Below, piece after piece: positions 1-39,994 of a stretch of 64,000 nucleotides of DNA. The DNA is taken from positions 1 through 64,000 of the forward strand of contig JAAYOH010000015.1 in assembly GCA_012520375.1 (NCBI GenBank). The letters are read 5' to 3'. The position numbers were made by a program, and so were the translations under genes. The notes beneath the pieces are model-generated. The model had not been told where the DNA came from and made no database searches. It was given only the letters and a program-made list of their open reading frames with translations. This stretch comes from Clostridiales bacterium (GTDB lineage: Bacteria; Bacillota; Clostridia; Christensenellales; Aristaeellaceae). Each line of letters begins with the position of its first letter. Position 1 is the first letter of the stretch.

Positions 1-899
1 ACATCTACCAACAGGTTGACAGCCAGAAACACCACCACCATCATCAGTGTGATGGACTGGGTCACAGGGTAATCCGAGGACTTGATGGAATCCACAAGGA
101 GAACACCCACACCGCCCAAGGCAAACACGTTCTCCACCAGCACAGCACCCACGATCATGGAGCCAAACTGGATAGAAGCTACCGTGATCACCGGGATGAC
201 CGCATTTTTGAAGCAATGGGCCAACACGATCCGATAAAAGGGTGTGCCCTTGGCGATGGCAGTCTGTGCGTAGGGCGCATGCAGTTGCTCAATCATATTG
301 GTGCGGGTAATGCGTGCGATCAGGGCCACCATATTCAGGGCAAGGGCTATGGAGGGCAGCGCCAGGTAGTACAGGTTCTCTCCGAAATTGCGCCCCACCC
401 CAAACACCGGGAACCACCCCAGCCGGTATGCGAAGACCAGCATCAGGATGATACTCATCAAAAAAACGGGCATGGCCACGCACAACAGGGTAAATAGCTG
501 CAAGATTCGGTCAAGTCCGCTGTTCATTTTGATGGCGGATAGGATCCCGACGGGCAGTGCGATGGCCAGGGACAGTACGCTGGCCATGAGCACCAACTGC
601 AAGGTTGTAGGCAGCCGCTCCCCCAGTAAGGTGGTGACGGGTTGTTTGTACTGGAAACTGGTGCCGAAATTCCCCCGGAAGATGTTTCCCATCCAAATCA
701 GATACTGCTCGGGCAGGGAGCGATCCAGATAGTATTGTGCCTCAATGCTGGCTCGGGTCTCTTGGGAGATCTTTTTCCCCTTCACCATGGAGGCCACCGG
801 ATCCGTGGGGGTTACCCGTACCATCAGGAAGATCATGATGGAAACCACCAGGAGCAGCGGAATCAGGTTCGCAACGCGCTTGAAAACATACCTTGCCAA
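1..899 (-). CDS. Opp/Dpp-type ABC transporter permease (partial, 3' end beyond window)
   Basis: Inner-membrane permease of a peptide/nickel-type ABC importer (OppB/DppB family), truncated by the window edge. The translated product starts MARYVFKRVANLIPLLL, followed by a hydrophobic first helix. It continues through the usual periplasmic loop and the EAA-type loop near the visible C-terminal part (motif around AIAKGTPFYRIVLAHCFKNA). I chose a TTG start at 899 because an AGGAGG box lies about 8 bases upstream; an ATG a few bases downstream is out of frame. The gene sits behind a lysine riboswitch, so lysine or lysine-containing peptides are a plausible substrate. Family assignment is firm; substrate is inferred from the riboswitch only. 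Confidence 0.9.
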   Translation of the reverse strand, partial: MARYVFKRVANLIPLLLVVSIMIFLMVRVTPTDPVASMVKGKKISQETRASIEAQYYLDRSLPEQYLIWMGNIFRGNFGTSFQYKQPVTTLLGERLPTTLQLVLMASVLSLAIALPVGILSAIKMNSGLDRILQLFTLLCVAMPVFLMSIILMLVFAYRLGWFPVFGVGRNFGENLYYLALPSIALALNMVALIARITRTNMIEQLHAPYAQTAIAKGTPFYRIVLAHCFKNAVIPVITVASIQFGSMIVGAVLVENVFALGGVGVLLVDSIKSSDYPVTQSITLMMVVVFLAVNLLVD

Positions 900-913
900 A
901 GAAACGCTCCTCC

Positions 914-955
914 TTAAACAAAAACCAGCGACAGATGATGCGCCTGTCCCTGGTT
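914..955 (-). terminator. Rho-independent terminator of the lysine riboswitch
   Basis: On the minus strand AACCAG-G-GACAG pairs with CTGTC-G-CTGGTT across a 9-base loop and is followed by TTTTTGTTT. It lies between the riboswitch aptamer and the ribosome binding site of the permease gene, so it is the expected expression platform for transcription attenuation. Confidence 0.85.
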
Positions 956-960
956 CGAGA

Positions 961-1116
961 GAATAGCGCATCCACCTCTGTGGGAGTGTGCTGCCTGTTC
1001 GACAACACCCCAGCCCCATCCCTTGGAAAGACAAGGCTTCGGCGGCGCCCCCTTTCAAACATCCTCATCGGCTTCCGGCCTGAAATGTCTTACTCTTGAT
1101 CACCGCGCCTCTATCT
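961..1116 (-). promoter_or_regulatory. Lysine riboswitch (L-box) aptamer
   Basis: The minus strand carries the conserved L-box landmarks in order: GATAGAGGCGCGG (from 1115), CAAGAGTA (1098-1091), GAAAGGGGGCGCCGCCGAAG (1055-1036), GCTGG, and a closing GCGCTATTC (969-961) able to pair with the 5' GATAG. The spacing and core bases match the lysine aptamer family known from lysC leaders. A terminator follows directly. Lysine binding should therefore reduce expression of the downstream peptide-type permease. Confidence 0.9.
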
Positions 1117-1155
1117 AGCAATATCATAGTCGCCGTATGAAATTATCCATGTTTC

Positions 1156-1184
1156 TTTATACCATATGCCGTGTCCCCTGTCAA
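1156..1184 (-). promoter_or_regulatory. SigA-type promoter of riboswitch/permease unit
   Basis: TTGACA (1184-1179), a 17-base spacer and TATAAA (1161-1156), with TGG directly before the -10 (extended -10). Transcription would start near 1149, giving a roughly 250-base leader that contains the whole lysine riboswitch and its terminator. Confidence 0.85.
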
Positions 1185-1259
1185 CCGCTTTTTTGTTCAA
1201 TCCTGTAACACATCACCTTATGCTTCGGGGCAAATGCCTCGCGCCCTGAAATCATTCTG

Positions 1260-1288
1260 TTGTCCTGCTCCAAATCCTGTGGTATAAT
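1260..1288 (+). promoter_or_regulatory. Promoter of thyX
   Basis: TTGTCC (1260-1265), 17-base spacer, TATAAT (1283-1288) with an upstream TGG (extended -10). The AAGGAG ribosome binding site and the ATG of thyX follow within 25 bases. The remainder of the 900-1311 interval holds only the divergent riboswitch leader described separately. Confidence 0.85.
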
Positions 1289-1311
1289 GCCCCTATAAGG
1301 AGCGTGATCAT

Positions 1312-1998
1312 ATGGCCATAGCAAAAGTAACAGCGACATACGAGATCCTTTGTCCCCATGACCTGGCAGGAGCCGGAAAGCATGAAATCTATCGGATCAT
1401 CGAAGTAGCCGGCCGTACCTGCTACAAGAGCGAGGCGCGCATCACCCGGGAGAGCGCCGCCAAATTCGTGGGATCCCTGGTCAAAAGCGGTCACGAGGCC
1501 ATGCTGGAGCATGCCTCCATGACGGTACGTTTTACTGTGGACCGGGGCATAACCCACGAACTGGTCCGCCACAGGATCTCCTCTTTCGCCCAGGAATCCA
1601 CCCGCTACTGCAATTACGCCAAGGACAAATTCGGCAGTCAGGTCACCCACGTCGACCTCACCGGTGGCATGGCCATCGATCCGGCGGTCTCAAAACTCCC
1701 TCCGGACGCCATCGCCCTGATCTACCAGGAATGGGAAGCCGCCTGCGAGGACGCTCAGCGCCATTATTTGCGCATGATCGAACTGGGCGCATCCCCCCAG
1801 ATCGCCCGCTCGGTGCTGAACCAAAGCACCAAATCCGAGCTCATCATGACCGCCAATATGCGGGAATGGCGTCATTTCCTGAACCTTCGCGCTGTAGGCA
1901 GCACCGGAAAACCCCACCCCCAGATGCTGGAGGTCACCGTCCCCCTGCTGAAAGAACTCGCCGCCGCCATGCCGGAGCTCTTCGGAGACTTGATCTGA
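1312..1998 (+). CDS. thyX: FAD-dependent thymidylate synthase ThyX
   Basis: Converts dUMP to dTMP with methylenetetrahydrofolate, using FAD and NADPH, so no separate ThyA/DHFR coupling is required. The 228-residue length is normal. The diagnostic ThyX signature RHR-x7-S is present (RHRISSFAQES, near residue 83), followed by TRYCNY. The C-terminal half contains the SELIMTANMREWRHF stretch typical of the family. The ATG at 1312 is preceded by AAGGAG. The gene is monocistronic, with its own promoter and a hairpin overlapping the stop codon, and is convergent with the nucleoside transporter operon. Confidence 0.97.
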   Translation: MAIAKVTATYEILCPHDLAGAGKHEIYRIIEVAGRTCYKSEARITRESAAKFVGSLVKSGHEAMLEHASMTVRFTVDRGITHELVRHRISSFAQESTRYCNYAKDKFGSQVTHVDLTGGMAIDPAVSKLPPDAIALIYQEWEAACEDAQRHYLRMIELGASPQIARSVLNQSTKSELIMTANMREWRHFLNLRAVGSTGKPHPQMLEVTVPLLKELAAAMPELFGDLI

Positions 1999-2046
1999 AG
2001 CAGCAAATCACCCGTTTTCGGGAAGCAGATCAAGTTTGCCTTTTTT
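1988..2046 (+). terminator. Terminator of thyX
   Basis: ACTTGATCTG (1988-1997, including the stop codon) pairs with CAGATCAAGT (2026-2035); a TTTTTTG run follows at 2041-2046. Confidence 0.65.
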
Positions 2047-2069
2047 GTCCCAGCGACCCTTGCCGCCTG

Positions 2070-2107
2070 TCAAAAGATCGCCCACGGCTTCCCTGCCGAG
2101 GGCGATC
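2070..2107 (-). terminator. Terminator of the nucleoside transporter operon
   Basis: GATCGCCC (2076-2083) pairs with GGGCGATC (2100-2107), with inner GGC/GCC pairs. Read on the minus strand it is followed by TTTT. It lies just past the stop of the last permease gene. Confidence 0.75.
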
Positions 2108-2128
2108 CATCTCTCTATCCTTGGTTTT

Positions 2129-3151
2129 TTACCTGCTGCCAATATCGTAGGGGATTCCCGCAGCCTTGGGGGCACGGGAACTCTTGGACGTGAAGGCCAG
2201 CACGATCAGCGTGATCAGATAGGGGAGCAGCCGGTAGAAGTTGGAACTGAGGCCGATCTCCTTCAGCAGATACACGCCGTCTCCATTGATATCCAGGCTG
2301 TAGTAGGACGCGGCTATACACTTGAACAAGCCAAAAAGCAGGGCAGCACCGGCGATGTTCAGGGGTTTCCAGTTGCCAAAGATCATGACCGCGAGAGCCA
2401 GAAAGCCGAAGCCCGCCACCTCGCCGTTGGCGGTACAGTTGGCGGTGGTCATGGCATACACGAAGCCGCCCATGCCCGACAGGGCGCCGGAGATCATGAC
2501 GCCATGGTATCTCATCTTCAGCACGTTGATGCCCAGGGAATCCGCCGCATGGGGATTTTCACCGCAGGAACGCAGGCGAAGACCGAAGCGGGTCTTATAG
2601 AGGATGACGGACAGCACAATGAATACCAATACACAAATGTAGGTCGTCAGATACACCTTATTCAGGAAGGTATCGATGAAAAAGTTGGAGCCGGTGATGC
2701 CCAGCATCTTTTTTTTCAGCATGAACCAACTGGCAGAGTCCCCTTTGAACATCTGCATGGTGTTCTGGTTGTTGATCACGCGGATCAGGAAGAGCACCAG
2801 GGCGGGGGCCATCAGATTCAGGGCGGTCCCGCCGATGGTCTGGTCCGCCCTGAGGTTTATGGCGGCAAAAGCCAATAACAGAGAAAAGACCATGCCCAGG
2901 GCGGCGGAGACCGCCATGGCCATCAAAAGGAAGAGCTGCATGGCACCCCAGTTTCCCACTTCCTTGGCAGCCTCGAACCAGCCCCACTTCTGCACCAGAT
3001 GTACGAAAAGGACGCCAATAAAAGCGCCAAAGATCATGATGCCCTCCAGGGCCAGGTTGATGATGCCGCTGCGTTCAGCGAAAACGCCGGCCAACGCCAC
3101 GACCATCAGGGGAACCGCATAGATGAGGGTTTGTCTGATTAAAAATGCCAT
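2129..3151 (-). CDS. nupQ: Nucleoside ABC transporter permease, NupQ/YufQ-type
   Basis: Second membrane subunit of a BMP-type nucleoside importer (BPD_transp_2 family, related to branched-chain amino acid permeases). It has 340 residues and many hydrophobic segments; the N-terminus AERSGIINLALEGIMIFGAF is characteristic of this permease subfamily. It is the last gene of a four-gene operon in the same order as Bacillus nupNOPQ and is separated from the first permease gene by one base. A strong terminator follows. The family is certain; nucleoside specificity follows from the operon type and is not visible in this subunit alone. Confidence 0.93.
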   Translation of the reverse strand: MAFLIRQTLIYAVPLMVVALAGVFAERSGIINLALEGIMIFGAFIGVLFVHLVQKWGWFEAAKEVGNWGAMQLFLLMAMAVSAALGMVFSLLLAFAAINLRADQTIGGTALNLMAPALVLFLIRVINNQNTMQMFKGDSASWFMLKKKMLGITGSNFFIDTFLNKVYLTTYICVLVFIVLSVILYKTRFGLRLRSCGENPHAADSLGINVLKMRYHGVMISGALSGMGGFVYAMTTANCTANGEVAGFGFLALAVMIFGNWKPLNIAGAALLFGLFKCIAASYYSLDINGDGVYLLKEIGLSSNFYRLLPYLITLIVLAFTSKSSRAPKAAGIPYDIGSR

Positions 3152-3152
3152 G

Positions 3153-4340
3153 CTATTCGTCCTCCTTCCCGATTTGCGCGGCCTTTTTCCTGCGTCCGCC
3201 CAGCCACATCCGAATGACCAGGGAGAAGGCGGACAGGTATACGATAACCGATATGATCACATCGGTGATGTACTCGTTGTAAGCTGTTAAATTGGTAAGC
3301 TGGAGCCCCGATATGGACAAAGTGGACATGAACATCCCGGTGAAGATGATCCCAATGGGATTGTTCGAAGCCAGCAATGCCACCGGGATGCCGTTGAAGC
3401 CCGCCGCCGGCAGGATCTGGTAGGTAGACCAGTAAAATTCTGTATTGCCGGACAGGTAGTACAGGCTTCCTGCCGCTCCTGCCATCGCCCCGGCGATGGC
3501 CATGGACAGGACCATGTTGCGCCTGTCCTTTATGCCCGCATATCGCGCGGCGTATCGGTTTGCGCCGCAGGCCTTTAATTCGTAGCCCAAGGTGGTACGG
3601 CTGATGAGAATATACATGAGCACAGCCAGCAGGATGGCGATGAGGATGCCCCCGTTCACTTGGGAGCCTGGGAACAGCTTGTCCAGCCCAAGTTTCGGCG
3701 TAGCGATTCCGTTGAAGGTGGTTTTGTAGATATAGCCCGACTTGGTGCTCTCAACGATGTTTTTCAGATTGCTGATGTCAAAAAGCCAGGTCACCACATT
3801 GGCGGCTATCCAGTTGCTCATGATGCAGGCCAGCACCTCATTGATATTCAAAAAGGCCTTCAACATGCCCGGAATGGCGCCCCACAGGGCGCCCGCAGCC
3901 ATACCGCCGAGAAAAGCAAGGAGCCATATCAACCAGGCGGGCACGATTTTGCTGGGAATGCTCAGGGCGATAAACAGGGTCGCGCAGGTCCCCGCCAAAT
4001 ATTGTCCAGCGGCGCCGATGTTGAACAAGCCGGACTTGAAGGCAATGCCCACGGACAGGCCCGTCAGGATGATAGGGGTAGCCCGGAACAGCATGTTGCC
4101 CATGCTGGCGGGATTAAATCCGAAGGTCAGTTCCCCTGCCGCGTTTCTGCCCGTGCTGAAGACGCCCAAGGCTATCAGACGTATTCCCTCCCAGGTGCTT
4201 TTGAGGGTCAGGTTCTTACTGCACAGACCTACGATCAGAATGACCAGGCTGCCCATCCCCATCCCAATCAGGATGGAGATCAGGGAGGCCAGGATCGAGC
4301 GCAGGACATTTCTTTCATTCTTTCCGCTCATACCCTCCAC
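3153..4340 (-). CDS. nupP: Nucleoside ABC transporter permease, NupP/YufP-type
   Basis: First membrane subunit of the BMP-type importer, 395 residues. It has a hydrophobic N-terminal helix (residues about 12-37), then repeated hydrophobic segments, including a conserved LFNIGAAGQYLAGT stretch and the LKACGANRYAARYAGI cytoplasmic loop that contacts the ATPase. The start overlaps the end of the ATPase gene by 13 bases, suggesting translational coupling, and the stop is one base from the next permease. The C-terminus is basic (GGRRKKAAQIGKEDE). Confidence 0.93.
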   Translation of the reverse strand: MEGMSGKNERNVLRSILASLISILIGMGMGSLVILIVGLCSKNLTLKSTWEGIRLIALGVFSTGRNAAGELTFGFNPASMGNMLFRATPIILTGLSVGIAFKSGLFNIGAAGQYLAGTCATLFIALSIPSKIVPAWLIWLLAFLGGMAAGALWGAIPGMLKAFLNINEVLACIMSNWIAANVVTWLFDISNLKNIVESTKSGYIYKTTFNGIATPKLGLDKLFPGSQVNGGILIAILLAVLMYILISRTTLGYELKACGANRYAARYAGIKDRRNMVLSMAIAGAMAGAAGSLYYLSGNTEFYWSTYQILPAAGFNGIPVALLASNNPIGIIFTGMFMSTLSISGLQLTNLTAYNEYITDVIISVIVYLSAFSLVIRMWLGGRRKKAAQIGKEDE

Positions 4341-5878
4341 GCCTCCTCTTTCTGGCGCTTGGCGCCTGCCATATATAGGCCCAATTCCTCGGTGCTCACC
4401 TGCGCAGGATCGAACTGGCCCACGATCTCCCCCCCGTACATCACCAGGATGCGGTCGGACAGGTTCATCACCTCGTCAAGTTCCAGGGAGACGAGCAGAA
4501 TGGCCTTGCCGGCATCCCGCTGGGCCACCAGCTGGCCATGGATGTACTCGATGGCGCCCACATCCAAGCCCCGGGTAGGCTGTACGGCCACGATCAGAGG
4601 CAGATCCCGGTCGATTTCCCGGGCGATAATGGTCTTCTGCTGATTGCCCCCGGACATGCTCCGAACCGGCGTGATGGGACCCTGGCCCGAACGCACGTCG
4701 TACTGCCGGATCAGAGCGTTTGCATAGCTGCGCACCTCGTCAAAGCGGATGAAGATACCGTTTCTGAACCTGGGCTCGTAATAGCGCTGCAGCACAAGGT
4801 TCTGTTCCAGGGTAAAGTCCAGCACCAGCCCGTGCTTGTGTCGGTCCTCGGGGATGTGGCTCATGCCCTTGAGGCTGCGCTGGCGAATGGATGCCGAAGT
4901 GATGTCGATGCCGCATAAGCTGATATGGCCGCAGGATGGTCGTTCCAATCCCGTCAGGGCGTGGATCAACTCGGTCTGGCCGTTGCCGTCGATGCCTGCG
5001 ATGCAGAGGATCTCCCCCGCTCGCACGGAAAAGTTTACCTTCGAGACCGCATCCCTCTTGTACAACCGGGAGGGAACGCTTACATCCTTGACCGTAAGTA
5101 CGTCATCCCCGGCATCTGCAGGCTCTTTGTCCACCACCATCTGAACAGGCCTGCCTACCATCATCCGACTCAGCTCGGTTTTGGTGGTTTCCTTGGTATG
5201 CACCGTCCCGATGTGCTTTCCCTTGCGCAGGACGGTGACCCGATCCGCCACTTCCATGATCTCGTTCAATTTATGAGATATGAACAGAATGCTCTTTCCC
5301 TCCCGGGTAAGGCCCCGCATGATGTGCATCAGTTCCCCGATCTCCTGCGGAGTCAGCACAGCGGTGGGCTCGTCAAAGATGAGCACCTCATTCTCCCGGT
5401 ACAGCATCTTCAGGATCTCCACCCGTTGCTGCATGCCCACGGTAATGTCTTCCACCTTAGCGTCCAGATCCACCTTCAGGCCATAGCGTTCAGACAGGGC
5501 TTGCACCTTCTTCCGGGCATCCTTTTTCTGGAGAAAACCCAGCTTGGTGTCCTCGGCGCCCAGGATGATGTTGTCCAGCACCGAAAATACTTCAATGAGT
5601 TTGAAATGCTGGTGCACCATGCCGATGTGCAGCGCCGTGGCATCGTTTGGGTCGTTGATGCGCACAGTCTTGCCATCCTTGCGGATCTCCCCGGCTTCGG
5701 GTTTGTACAGGCCAAAAAGCACACTCATCAGGGTGGATTTGCCCGCGCCGTTCTCGCCCAACAGGGCGTGGATCTCCCCATGTTTCAGTTGCAGAGTGAT
5801 ATCATCGTTTGCGCGGACCCCGGGGAATTCCTTGGTGATATGGAGCATTTCGATGACATAGGGGGGTGCCCCTTCCAT
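4328..5878 (-). CDS. nupO: Nucleoside ABC transporter ATPase with two ABC domains, NupO-type
   Basis: Energises the BMP-type nucleoside importer. At 516 residues it holds two fused ABC domains, as usual for sugar/nucleoside importers. The N-terminal domain has Walker A GENGAGKST and Walker B VLIFDEPTAVL; the C-terminal domain has the signature SGGNQQK and a degenerate Walker A (IDGNGQTEL), typical of this family. I set the start at the ATG at 5878 rather than an upstream in-frame codon at 5911 because AAGGAGGG lies 7 bases before 5878 and would otherwise be coding. It is preceded by the binding-protein gene and a strong intergenic hairpin. Confidence 0.95.
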   Translation of the reverse strand: MEGAPPYVIEMLHITKEFPGVRANDDITLQLKHGEIHALLGENGAGKSTLMSVLFGLYKPEAGEIRKDGKTVRINDPNDATALHIGMVHQHFKLIEVFSVLDNIILGAEDTKLGFLQKKDARKKVQALSERYGLKVDLDAKVEDITVGMQQRVEILKMLYRENEVLIFDEPTAVLTPQEIGELMHIMRGLTREGKSILFISHKLNEIMEVADRVTVLRKGKHIGTVHTKETTKTELSRMMVGRPVQMVVDKEPADAGDDVLTVKDVSVPSRLYKRDAVSKVNFSVRAGEILCIAGIDGNGQTELIHALTGLERPSCGHISLCGIDITSASIRQRSLKGMSHIPEDRHKHGLVLDFTLEQNLVLQRYYEPRFRNGIFIRFDEVRSYANALIRQYDVRSGQGPITPVRSMSGGNQQKTIIAREIDRDLPLIVAVQPTRGLDVGAIEYIHGQLVAQRDAGKAILLVSLELDEVMNLSDRILVMYGGEIVGQFDPAQVSTEELGLYMAGAKRQKEEAWRV

Positions 5879-5912
5879 GCTGCTACCCTCCTTTCCGGCG
5901 TATGGTAACAAC

Positions 5913-5943
5913 GCGAGGCGCCTGCATGGAGCCGGCGCCTCGC
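5913..5943 (-). repeat. Intergenic hairpin between binding-protein and ATPase genes
   Basis: GCGAGGCGCC (5913-5922) and GGCGCCTCGC (5934-5943) form a perfect 10-bp stem with an 11-base loop. No T-run follows, so it is more likely an mRNA-stabilising or partially terminating stem that favours high expression of the binding protein over the membrane subunits. Confidence 0.75.
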
Positions 5944-5958
5944 AAATGGTATGCCCGA

Positions 5959-7080
5959 TTATTCCACGATGGACAGATTGACGCTTTCCAGGGCCTCGTC
6001 GGACAGGTTCTCGTAATTGTCATCCACGGCGAGTTCGCCGGCGATGACAGCAGCCAGCATATCCTCATACTCTTCCACGGTGTAGGTCTGCATGCTCCAG
6101 GTTTCGGTAGGCAAGCCGGTGGCGCCTTCCGCAGCACCCAGGTTGATGCCGGTTCCTGCGATCTCGTCCCAATTACCGTCATAATACTTGGCAATAGCCA
6201 GGTAGGCAGCCTCGCCCACGCCCTTCAGGGCAGAGGTGACGACAGTATCGGAATCGTAGGACTGGTCGCTGTCAACGCCTACCACAAAGCAATCGTTCTC
6301 TGCCGCTGCCGCAGTGATGGAGTCAAACATGGGTCCGCCGCAGGCGAAGACCACTTCGATGCCGTTCTCATACCATCCGTTCACCATGGTCTGCAGTTCA
6401 GGAGAAGCACTGAAGGTGGCTCCGTACAGCCAGGAGTAGTTAAGGTCTACGGTCTTGCCCAGCTCGGCAGCTGCTGCATCGATACCCTGCGCAAATCCGT
6501 AGCCGTACCGGCAGCAAGCAGGATTGGTCCCGCCACCGCCGCCACAGAAGCCAATTTTTTCGAAGCCTTCCTTCACGAGGGCATAGCCGGCAAAGTAGCC
6601 GCATTGCTCCTCTTTGAAGACCACGGGAGCCACGTTGGACATGATGTTTCCGTCGGCGCCGGTGAGGGGCCAACCGTCGATAAACACGAACATGGTGTCC
6701 TTGAATTCATCAGCAGCCTTGGTCAGGGCGGCGCCTTGCATGTAACCGGCACACACTGCGACCTTTGCGCCTCCATCTACGGCAGCTTTGATGGCGTCGT
6801 AGCGGTCGTCATCGGTAGCCTGGTCGCCATTGGCGGGCTGATAGTATTTGTAGGACAGGCCGTGTTCTGCTGCATAGCTTTTGACACCGTTCCAGGTGCC
6901 CTGGTTGAAGGACTTGTCCTTCAGTTGTCCCACGTCAGTGATGAAAGCCAACTCGTAGGTACCGTCTGCTGAGGTCATGGTGTCCTCGATATCATCTGCA
7001 CCGGCGATATCGGCGACGCAGGTGACAGTCAGGCCAAGAACCAGCATCAGAACGATCAGGACAGAAAGCAGTTTCTTCAT
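5959..7080 (-). CDS. nupN: BMP-family nucleoside-binding protein, NupN/PnrA-type
   Basis: Extracytoplasmic substrate-binding protein (Bmp/PnrA family) of the nucleoside importer, 373 residues. It has a hydrophobic signal segment (residues 3-20), then the family hallmarks AFITDVGQLKDKSFNQGTW and a glycine-rich region GFCGGGGGTNPACCRYGYG. Most relatives are lipoproteins, but here the only early cysteine is in TVTC, which lacks the small residue normally required at -1, so lipidation is uncertain. First gene of the operon, with its own promoter at 7126-7154 and an AGGAGG site before the ATG. Confidence 0.93.
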   Translation of the reverse strand: MKKLLSVLIVLMLVLGLTVTCVADIAGADDIEDTMTSADGTYELAFITDVGQLKDKSFNQGTWNGVKSYAAEHGLSYKYYQPANGDQATDDDRYDAIKAAVDGGAKVAVCAGYMQGAALTKAADEFKDTMFVFIDGWPLTGADGNIMSNVAPVVFKEEQCGYFAGYALVKEGFEKIGFCGGGGGTNPACCRYGYGFAQGIDAAAAELGKTVDLNYSWLYGATFSASPELQTMVNGWYENGIEVVFACGGPMFDSITAAAAENDCFVVGVDSDQSYDSDTVVTSALKGVGEAAYLAIAKYYDGNWDEIAGTGINLGAAEGATGLPTETWSMQTYTVEEYEDMLAAVIAGELAVDDNYENLSDEALESVNLSIVE

Positions 7081-37383: not shown

Positions 37384-38595
37384 TTACACAAGTTCCTCCA
37401 GAACTTTCTTCAGGGCGTGTTCTCCGTCAATCCCCTTCAAGGAGGCTTCCCGGCACAGTTCCAACAGTTTCTCGCCAAGGACCCGTTCCTCCTCTGGGGA
37501 TGGCGAAACTCCTCCCCGATATACGCCCAATTTCTTGAACATTTTCTGAGCCCGCATCAGGGCGGGAAGGCCCGAAGCGATAGCCCTGACGGCCTCCGCG
37601 CCATCTTTTTGCCCCTTCTCCCTGCGCTTTTGTTCCTCCCAGATCTCCTCTGGCGCCCTTCCCTTCTGCCCGCCAAAAACGTGGGGATGACGGCGCAGCA
37701 TCTTTCGGCAGATACCCGTGGTGATGTCGTCCAGATCGAATTCCCCGTACTGTTCCGCCACATTTGCATGGATGAACACCTGCCACAGAAGATCTCCAAG
37801 TTCTTCACAAAGGGCATCCGGGTCTGCCTTTTCAATGGCGTCCGATACCTCCCATGCCTCCTCCACCACATAGGGCCGCAGTCCCTCATGGGTTTGCTCC
37901 CGGTCCCAAGGGCAGCCATCGGGGCCCCGCAGGATCGCGGCAATGCGTTTCAACTCGTGCATGCCCAGGCGATCCAACCCCTTCAGGTCCGGGCAGGGAG
38001 GGGCATAGGCGCAACTGGTGTGGTTGTAGGTCTCTTGCCGATCCAGATCTTCCAAGGAGATGGGCAGGATAACGCTATCCTGCATCAGCATCACCTCTGT
38101 CTCCGGGGGATAACGCCGCATCAGCGCCAACTTTACCTCCGAAGCCAGGGGAGCGGATGTGATCTCCCGCACCAGGGCACCTTCCCCCGCCTCCACGATG
38201 GCATCATCCAGGTCACAGGCGGCAAACAGGCGGGTGGGCCCCAGGGTCCTGGCAAAAAGGCTTCCCTCCAGGGGCACTCCTGGGATCATCCGGGCATCCG
38301 GATGAAGGGCCAACAGCCCGGCGACGCTCTCGTCACGAATATCCAGTACGCCATATACCACATTGCCCTTCAGCCCCGCTACGTAGCGGATAATGGCCTC
38401 GTTCAGCTGGTCGAAGTCCTCCGCTCCTTGGTACAGGGCGTCCAGGGTCTCAAAGGGGATGCCCTTTTTCCTCAGGTACTCCGTGGCGCCGCACTGCCCG
38501 GTACGAAGGACGATGCGGGCGTCCTCAGAAAGGGCTTCCATAGCCTCCAAGGTCAAATGCTCCTTTTGGAGGCCCAGTCCCAGGATCGTCAGCAT
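37384..38595 (-). CDS. mazG: MazG-type NTP pyrophosphohydrolase with degenerate methylase domain
   Basis: YabN-like fusion: an N-terminal tetrapyrrole-methylase-like domain (about 1-220) and one C-terminal MazG domain (about 235-345; [37 protein letters not shown], with acidic metal ligands). 403 residues, shorter than Bacillus YabN (about 490), which has a second MazG domain. The methylase's usual PGHP-type glycine loop is replaced ([12 protein letters not shown]), so it is probably non-catalytic. Start overlaps metK by 7 bases. Confidence 0.9.
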
Positions 38596-39788
38596 CGTAT
38601 CTGTCCTTTCCGTTCCAACTCTTTCAGATTTTCCTGCAGGATCTTCACATGATCCGCCTTTTCCCAGGGCAAATCCAGATCAAGCCGGCCAAAGTGCCCG
38701 TAGCTGGCGGTTTGGGCGTAAATGGGCCGCCGCAGGTCCATACGGTCTATGATGGCCGCCGGACGGAAATCAAAGGACATCTTCACCAGACGCGCCATCT
38801 CGTCATTGGGGAGGACGCCGGTTCCGAAGGTGTCCACGGTAACGGACACGGGTTTCGCCACGCCAATGGCGTAGGCCAGGCCGATCTCGCAGCATCGGGC
38901 CAAGCCGGCTGCCACCAGATTCAGGGCAGCATGGCGGGCCGCATAGGAAGCGGAACGATCGACCTTGGTGGGATCCTTCCCGGAGAAGGCGCCGCCCCCG
39001 TGGCGGCCATAGCCGCCGTAGGTGTCAACGATGATCTTCCGGCCCGTCAATCCCGAATCTCCCTGAGGCCCGCCGATGACAAAGCGGCCCGTGGGGTTGA
39101 TGAGATAGCGGGTCTCATCATCCAGCCACTTTGCCGGGATGGCGCGACGGATCACCTTTTCCAGCACGTCTTCCGTGATTTGCGATAAGGTAACGTCCGG
39201 CGCGTGTTGGGTAGAGACCACAACGGTGTGGACCCGCAGCGGTATGCCATCCCGGTACTCCACCGTCACCTGGGCTTTGCCGTCGGGCCGTAGGTAGGGG
39301 ATTTCCCCGTCCTTCCGCGCCTGGGCCAATTGTCTTGTGAGTCGATGGGCCAGGGCGATGGCAAGGGGCATATATTCCGGGGTCTCATCCGAGGCGTAGC
39401 CGAACATCATGCCTTGGTCCCCGGCGCCGATGTCAAATACATGCTCCGCCCTGCCCTCCAGGGCATTGTCTACCCCCATGGCGATGTCCGATGACTGTTC
39501 GTCCACGGAGACCAGCACTGCACAGGAATTGCCATCAAAACCATACTTGGCCCGGTCATAGCCGATCTCCAGCACCTTTTGTCGGGCGATCTTGTCGATG
39601 GACACATAACTTTTCGTGGTAATCTCCCCCATGACCAGGATCATGCCCGTGGTGGTGGCGCATTCGCAGGCTACCCGGGCCATGGGGTCCACTTTCAAAA
39701 TTGCATCCAGGACCGCATCGGAGATCTGGTCGCAGATCTTGTCGGGATGCCCTTCGGTCACCGATTCCGAAGTAAACAGAGTACGCAT
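38589..39788 (-). CDS. metK: S-adenosylmethionine synthetase
   Basis: Makes SAM from methionine and ATP. 399 residues; [18 protein letters not shown] at the N-terminus, [12 protein letters not shown] and the P-loop-like [16 protein letters not shown]. Under a SAM-I riboswitch and terminator directly upstream, so expression should fall when SAM is high. It overlaps mazG. Confidence 0.98.
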
Positions 39789-39833: not shown

Positions 39834-39847
39834 GTGTCAACGCCGCG

Positions 39848-39950
39848 CCTCATCTTTCAGCCATAAATCAGGCTGCGGGAATTGGCACCGGTCACGCTGC
39901 GCCGGTTGCCGGGTTTCATCGGGCCCGTCCCTCGACCACTCTGGATAAGG
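39848..39950 (-). promoter_or_regulatory. SAM-I riboswitch (S-box) of metK
   Basis: Read on the minus strand the conserved elements appear in order: CTTATCCAGAG, GGAGGGAC-type core, GGCCCGATGAAACCCGGCAA, GGTGCCAATTCC, and GAAAGATGAG closing P1 with the 5' CTTATC. The following terminator and metK gene complete a classical OFF switch: SAM binding frees the terminator. Confidence 0.95.
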
Positions 39951-39994
39951 CATTATCCATTTTTCTATGAAACTATAGGCTAAAGCCCATTTGT

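Follow-up and report, generated by a model that had tools for sequence, protein, structure and literature searches.

Does a lysine riboswitch govern a peptide importer in this clostridial genome and, if so, what would the importer bring into the cell? The question arises at the very start of the stretch of DNA analyzed here (64,000 nucleotides; "the window"), where the first-pass annotation had described an L-box aptamer, a terminator, a ribosome-binding site (RBS), and a permease gene under a consensus promoter, in a span (899-1184) bounded by the start codon and the −35 box. We ran the Rfam lysine model (RF00168) on this leader and obtained a match over the full length of the model (positions 1 to 182 of 182) at 88.8 bits (gathering score, 30); the E value of 5.5e-22 rules out a chance match. 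The other elements are present as well (Table 1), with the aptamer, terminator, RBS, and permease gene all on one contig. By eye, the aptamer is preceded by a near-consensus promoter; a promoter scan passed over it because that scan requires the final T of the TATAAT hexamer. The permease frame stays open to window base 3 and matches the Pfam domains BPD_transp_1 (E = 3.9e-29) and BPD_transp_1_N (E = 1e-14). The Pfam matches of the operon rule out an NhaC- or SBP_bac_3-type target mistaken for an Opp-type one.

Table 1. Positions of leader elements, operon genes, and related loci (window numbering unless a contig or locus is named)
Feature	Position	Strand	Basis
Putative promoter (TTGACA 1184-1179, 17-nt spacer, TATAAA 1161-1156)	1156..1184	−	By eye
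Lysine riboswitch aptamer (L-box, RF00168)	956..1121	−	cmscan, 88.8 bits, E 5.5e-22
Predicted antiterminator (972-965 with 944-937; 962-958 with 951-947)	937..972	−	Folding
Intrinsic terminator (hairpin 955-923 and U-tract)	920..955	−	Folding; terminator scan
Ribosome-binding site AAGGAGG	909..915	−	By eye
dppB-like permease gene (TTG start 899-897; truncated at window/contig end)	3..899	−	Pfam
Contig-end overlap	Window 1-343; contig C6 34894-35236 (L002, L006)		Sequence comparison
dppC (second permease)	Contig C6, L006 12843-11911	−	NCBIfam match below cut-off
dppD (ATPase)	Contig C6, L006 11930-10959	−	NCBIfam match below cut-off
dppF (ATPase)	Contig C6, L006 10945-10001	−	NCBIfam match below cut-off
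dppA (SBP_bac_5 binding protein)	Contig C6, L006 9974-8397	−	
Aptamer before dppB, horse-faeces Clostridia MAG (G108)	L155		
Aptamer before dppB, Candidatus Paralachnospira sangeri	L157		
Aptamer before dppB, Lachnospiraceae MAGs	L159, L164		
Aptamer before dppB, Eubacterium sp. RUI485	L166		
Aptamer, Na/Ala-symporter-family gene, and Amidohydro_3 gene	L114 (G115:C1) about 82-3300	+	

To see how the leader might switch, we folded its 3′ part. The terminator hairpin (−16.8 kcal/mol; z = −4.73) and the antiterminator (−17.5 kcal/mol; z = −4.30) were each more stable than all 200 shuffled sequences. A terminator scan also listed the 955-923 hairpin, but it reported three terminator-like sites in 2,200 bases where 2.1 are expected by chance. 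When positions 973 to 920 were folded as a whole, the minimum-energy structure was the antiterminator (−18.9 kcal/mol) and the centroid was the terminator (−18.6 kcal/mol), with 7 of 200 shuffles equally stable. The leader is thus predicted to form mutually exclusive hairpins of nearly equal energy, as an expression platform able to switch. Folding the whole leader without constraints gave a minimum structure that lacks the aptamer's own fold; native riboswitch folds are often missed in single-sequence folding. As the antiterminator takes up both the aptamer's 3′ end (972-965) and a strand of the terminator (944-937), bound lysine should release the terminator. Without lysine, these two strands would pair, blocking the terminator and letting the operon be transcribed; with lysine bound, the 972-965 strand would be kept within the aptamer, the terminator would form, and transcription would halt before the RBS. 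The predicted behavior follows the customary OFF logic.

The window begins at base 1 of its contig (C71), inside the permease gene, and the rest of the operon had been presumed to lie beyond it. We found it on contig C6 of the same assembly, which ends in a 343-base overlap with C71 (339 of 343 positions identical); the four mismatches probably reflect strain variation in the assembly. Beyond the overlap, C6 completes an importer of the Opp/Dpp/Nik class in the order B-C-D-F-A: two BPD_transp_1 permeases, two OppD/OppF-type ATPases, and, last, an SBP_bac_5 substrate-binding protein (SBP). We infer the join between the contigs from sequence, and it is supported by synteny because homologs of the five genes stand in the same order in 15 of 16 orthologous loci (described below; in the 16th, L164, the contig ends in dppB). 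At an E value of ≤1e-60, the window genome (95% complete, 2.5% contaminated) has no dppB besides the window gene and its overlap copy. None of the five proteins reaches a curated NCBIfam equivalog cut-off (for example, 270 versus 350 bits for the dppB-like protein with Opp2B and 183 versus 594 bits for the SBP with GsiB). A nickel or metallophore importer was considered, as the permease's top NCBIfam match is a nickel model, and was not adopted: that match is below its cut-off, and the SBP has the aspartate of DppA and OppA.

This aspartate, which belongs to a W..D motif common to E. coli DppA and OppA and presumably binds the amino group of peptides, is kept in the window SBP and in five aligned orthologs, whereas GsiB has a serine. 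SBP_bac_5 proteins with the DppA/OppA aspartate are mostly peptide binders, and the residue favors a peptide, an amino acid, or another ligand whose amino group is free. The top PDB matches of the SBP were 5u4o (an SBP with no named ligand), YliB (which we take to be GsiB), 8upi (a peptide SBP), and heme-binding proteins; its best NCBIfam score was to the glutathione SBP GsiB. A lipoprotein signal is customary for SBPs of monoderm bacteria. By eye, a GC lipobox is seen in the SBPs of L157, L158, and L163, and none is obvious in those of the window genome (L006 8397-9974), L161, and L166; judged from these sequences, the membrane anchoring of the orthologous SBP seems to differ between lineages.

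We then asked how widely the arrangement is kept. A scan of named genome contigs returned 46 relatives, of which 16 (L155 to L170) were 54 to 70% identical over nearly the full compared stretch. L171 to L188 and L190 to L200 (29 to 40% identity) were treated as distant, and the two of these that were scanned for aptamers (L173 and L199) had no lysine aptamer. L189 was left out, its dppB being cut at the contig start, and L155 and L161, which are contigs of the family genomes G108 and G159, were each counted once. A lysine aptamer stands directly ahead of dppB in 5 of the 16 orthologous loci (6 of 17 with the window), and in all five, a hairpin with a T-run lies between the aptamer and the start codon (in L159, the shorter of two folded stretches favored a different structure). 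The remaining 11 of 17 operons, including that of Catenibacillus scindens, have no aptamer at the Rfam threshold in the DNA scanned (up to 17 kb). For one of them, L161, a permissive scan likewise found none, and its entire genome has no lysine aptamer. Across the 16 ortholog genomes, 11 carry lysine aptamers, 21 in total (5 before dppB, 10 before dapA, 3 before amino-acid SBP genes, 2 before NhaC-type genes, and 1 at a contig end). Searches with the Paralachnospira DppB (E ≤ 1e-100) matched the window's genome alone among 391 genomes of the class and three loci, all already known, among 397 genomes of the family of L157.

In a DppB tree, the six aptamer-led operons occupy three places: L157 with L159 (support, 99/98), L164 with L166 (98/94), and the window with L155 (85/97). 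Aptamer presence requires three changes on this tree, and 7 of 500 label shuffles were as low. In a tree of the aptamers themselves, the four Lachnospiraceae-type aptamers group together (96/89), as do those of the window and G108 (98/89); long branches meet in this tree, and a single origin of the dpp aptamers is neither demonstrated nor excluded by it. Two other RNA elements were seen near orthologous operons: a Clostridiales-1 RNA (RF01699) directly behind the Catenibacillus scindens operon (L158 13789-13951, plus strand) and a cobalamin riboswitch on the opposite strand directly before dppB in L168 (7436-7665, minus strand).

To place the window aptamer among others of its kind, we examined the targets of lysine aptamers in its genome and family. 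The window genome has three, ahead of the dpp operon, a Na+/H+-antiporter-family (NhaC-like) gene, and a dapA-dapB-ddh cluster (dapA and ddh assigned by NCBIfam, dapB by eye). In the family, under stricter filters that drop weak matches, 121 of 200 genomes have at least one aptamer, with 137 aptamers in total. The target was taken as the longest open reading frame (ORF) starting within 700 nt 3′ of each aptamer, with labels assigned by clustering and by eye and one representative per main type tested in Pfam. Amino-acid SBP genes were the commonest targets (69), followed by dapA (24; in two cases the longest ORF was in the wrong frame and dapA was seen by tblastn), aspartate-semialdehyde-dehydrogenase-type genes (23), and NhaC-type genes (8). 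Rarer targets were MaoC-like genes (3), dppB (2; the window and G108), and Opp-type SBP genes (2; G010 and G100), so that Opp/Dpp-type genes follow 4 of the 137 aptamers; the remainder comprised four single cases (G115, G132, G070, and G094) and two aptamers without an ORF near contig or stretch ends. The Opp-type SBPs of G010 and G100 are only 21 to 26% identical to the window operon's SBP and to one another and therefore represent separate systems. A hairpin lies 3′ of both aptamers, with a short T-run in G010 and without one in G100.

Some of the other targets deserve mention. In G094, the longest ORF after the aptamer runs into an M20-type protein that seemingly starts ∼900 nt downstream, and dapA lies at ∼2 kb. 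In G070 (L154, G070:C174, 82-3300, plus strand), the aptamer is followed by an alanine-dehydrogenase-like gene and then, by eye, an NhaC-type-looking ORF. Four loci (L150, L151, L152, and L153) have lysine aptamers ahead of apparent lysine-fermentation genes (MaoC-like and kal-/kce-like ORFs); the ORFs after the three MaoC-like genes resemble what we take to be kal and kce. A kal-kce pair is a published lysine riboswitch target in the excerpted text of PMC5584792.

Together, these results suggest that the importer is switched on when lysine is short, in this uncultured bacterium and in several relatives. We consider it likely (probability, roughly 0.7) that a lysine OFF riboswitch acting by transcription attenuation governs a five-gene Opp/Dpp-class importer, most likely for lysine-yielding di- or oligopeptides. 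This reading rests on the full-length aptamer match, the competing hairpins, and the importer operon behind them; on the recurrence of aptamer and T-run hairpin before orthologous dppB genes in three places of the DppB tree; and on the two unrelated Opp-type SBP genes that also follow lysine aptamers. The peptide cargo is proposed because the DppA/OppA aspartate is kept in the SBP and its orthologs. Imported lysine-containing peptides would release lysine after cleavage, and the importer would stand beside two other lysine-controlled responses of the cell, synthesis (dapA-dapB-ddh) and the NhaC-type transporter. The reading is weakened by the aptamer-free majority of orthologous operons, by the spread of the operon over two contigs whose overlap contains mismatches, and by the SBP, which scores best with GsiB. 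Of the original proposal, the lysine riboswitch before a full importer has been borne out by the covariance model, the operon genes on contig C6, and the aptamer-dppB arrangement in five other genomes; the uptake of lysine or lysine peptides is the part that we still only infer, with no equivalog cut-off reached and 11 of 17 orthologous operons lacking the aptamer.

A further point against the peptide reading is that most orthologs have a neighboring amidohydrolase gene, a hint that something other than plain peptides may be imported. The importer may bring in modified or amide-linked lysine (acyl-lysine or isopeptides), from which a YtcJ-like amidohydrolase (Amidohydro_3), found in many relatives, would free lysine inside the cell. 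At 13 of the 16 orthologous loci, a homolog of the L157 gene is found close to the operon (in L158 only at the locus edge, ∼3 kb behind dppA); among the remaining loci, L155 and L168 stop directly after dppA, and L165 has no such gene. The aptamer-led operons of L157 and L159 end with this gene, after dppA, and in G115, a lysine aptamer precedes a gene of the Na/Ala-symporter family, followed by an Amidohydro_3 gene whose product is 38% identical to that of L157. A comparable pairing of transporter and amidohydrolase, yfcC with an M20D gene, stands behind a lysine riboswitch in Clostridioides difficile according to the excerpted text of the review PMC11477304, where, however, the transporter is unrelated and the hydrolase family different. 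On the other hand, the window genome has no match to the L157-type amidohydrolase; in L164 and L166, the gene lies upstream of the aptamer, beyond the reach of the switch; and among 59 homologs in 57 of the 200 family genomes, only that of G115 has a lysine aptamer within 3 kb. We give this alternative modest weight and think it unlikely. The same holds for its widest form, a doubtful one, in which the riboswitch would mark an unrecognized lysine-salvage pathway of gut clostridia, with an Opp-class importer for modified or amide-linked lysine, a YtcJ-like amidohydrolase in many relatives, and three or more unrelated Opp-class systems having acquired lysine aptamers. The pairing nevertheless hints at a role for some YtcJ-like amidohydrolases.

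Somewhat less probable still, the importer could carry free lysine, or diaminopimelate-containing cell wall peptides convertible to lysine. Such cargoes would fit the prevalence of amino-acid SBP genes behind the family's lysine aptamers and the window genome's synthesis of lysine via diaminopimelate (dapA and ddh), but the DppA/OppA-type aspartate points to peptides in general, and the murein-peptide SBPs in the PDB score only ∼75 to 76 bits, versus 198 bits for the best match of the window SBP. It is very improbable that the aptamer has no control over the operon, being a remnant or standing there by chance. This might be argued from its absence from most orthologous operons and, for the G100 system, from the lack of a nearby aptamer in all five other family genomes that have an ortholog of the G100 Opp-type SBP. 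Against this, the aptamer, the hairpin, and a short gap to dppB are retained by six operons in three lineages, and in the window the aptamer, terminator, and RBS share a contig with the gene.

The preferred reading, a lysine OFF switch before a peptide importer, joins two known classes. The leader has the same aptamer, promoter, and terminator/antiterminator layout as terminator-type lysine riboswitches (lysC and lysP), and the importer belongs with E. coli DppABCDF, OppABCDF, and GsiABCD in having two permeases, ATPase(s), and an SBP_bac_5 protein, with the aspartate of DppA and OppA kept; it differs from them in its gene order with the SBP last, in its lysine control, and in scoring below every equivalog cut-off. 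To our knowledge, the ligand of most Opp-class importers has yet to be named, and a riboswitch of known ligand before one points to a specific, testable substrate class. Opp/Dpp-type import would at the same time join the outputs of the lysine riboswitch. In the excerpted text of PMC5584792, a study of 2,785 genomes, the transport-related targets are lysP, gabP, lysW, yvsH, and lysX-lysY, together with oligoendopeptidase F in Mycoplasma, unlike the SBP_bac_5 (Opp/Dpp-class) importer found here. One of these, lysX-lysY, likewise places ABC import under lysine control, but targets of that type have an SBP_bac_3 protein (one representative checked) rather than SBP_bac_5 and presumably a different substrate. 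The main text of PMC5584792 contains no word beginning with "peptide," "opp," or "dpp," and the excerpted texts of PMC3766115, PMC11477304, PMC2211319, PMC9495366, and PMC12452182 contain no Opp/Dpp case. Among the literature matches listed, none reports an Opp/Dpp operon led by a lysine riboswitch; the founding survey of 2003, outside the search, may name one. What appears new is the pairing of switch and transporter class, kept in three lineages and met in two further systems, and its absence from the literature searched is no proof of its being unpublished.

The remainder of the window carries further genes and switches. The gene divergent from the leader (1312-1998) belongs to the Thy1 (thyX) family by Pfam. 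On its far side lies a PnrA/BMP-type ABC importer (2129-7080, minus strand) with a Bmp SBP, a double ATPase, and two BPD_transp_2 permeases. A SAM riboswitch (RF00162, 86.5 bits) is found at 39847-39951 on the minus strand, and the gene after it (38589-39788, minus strand) was identified by eye as metK.
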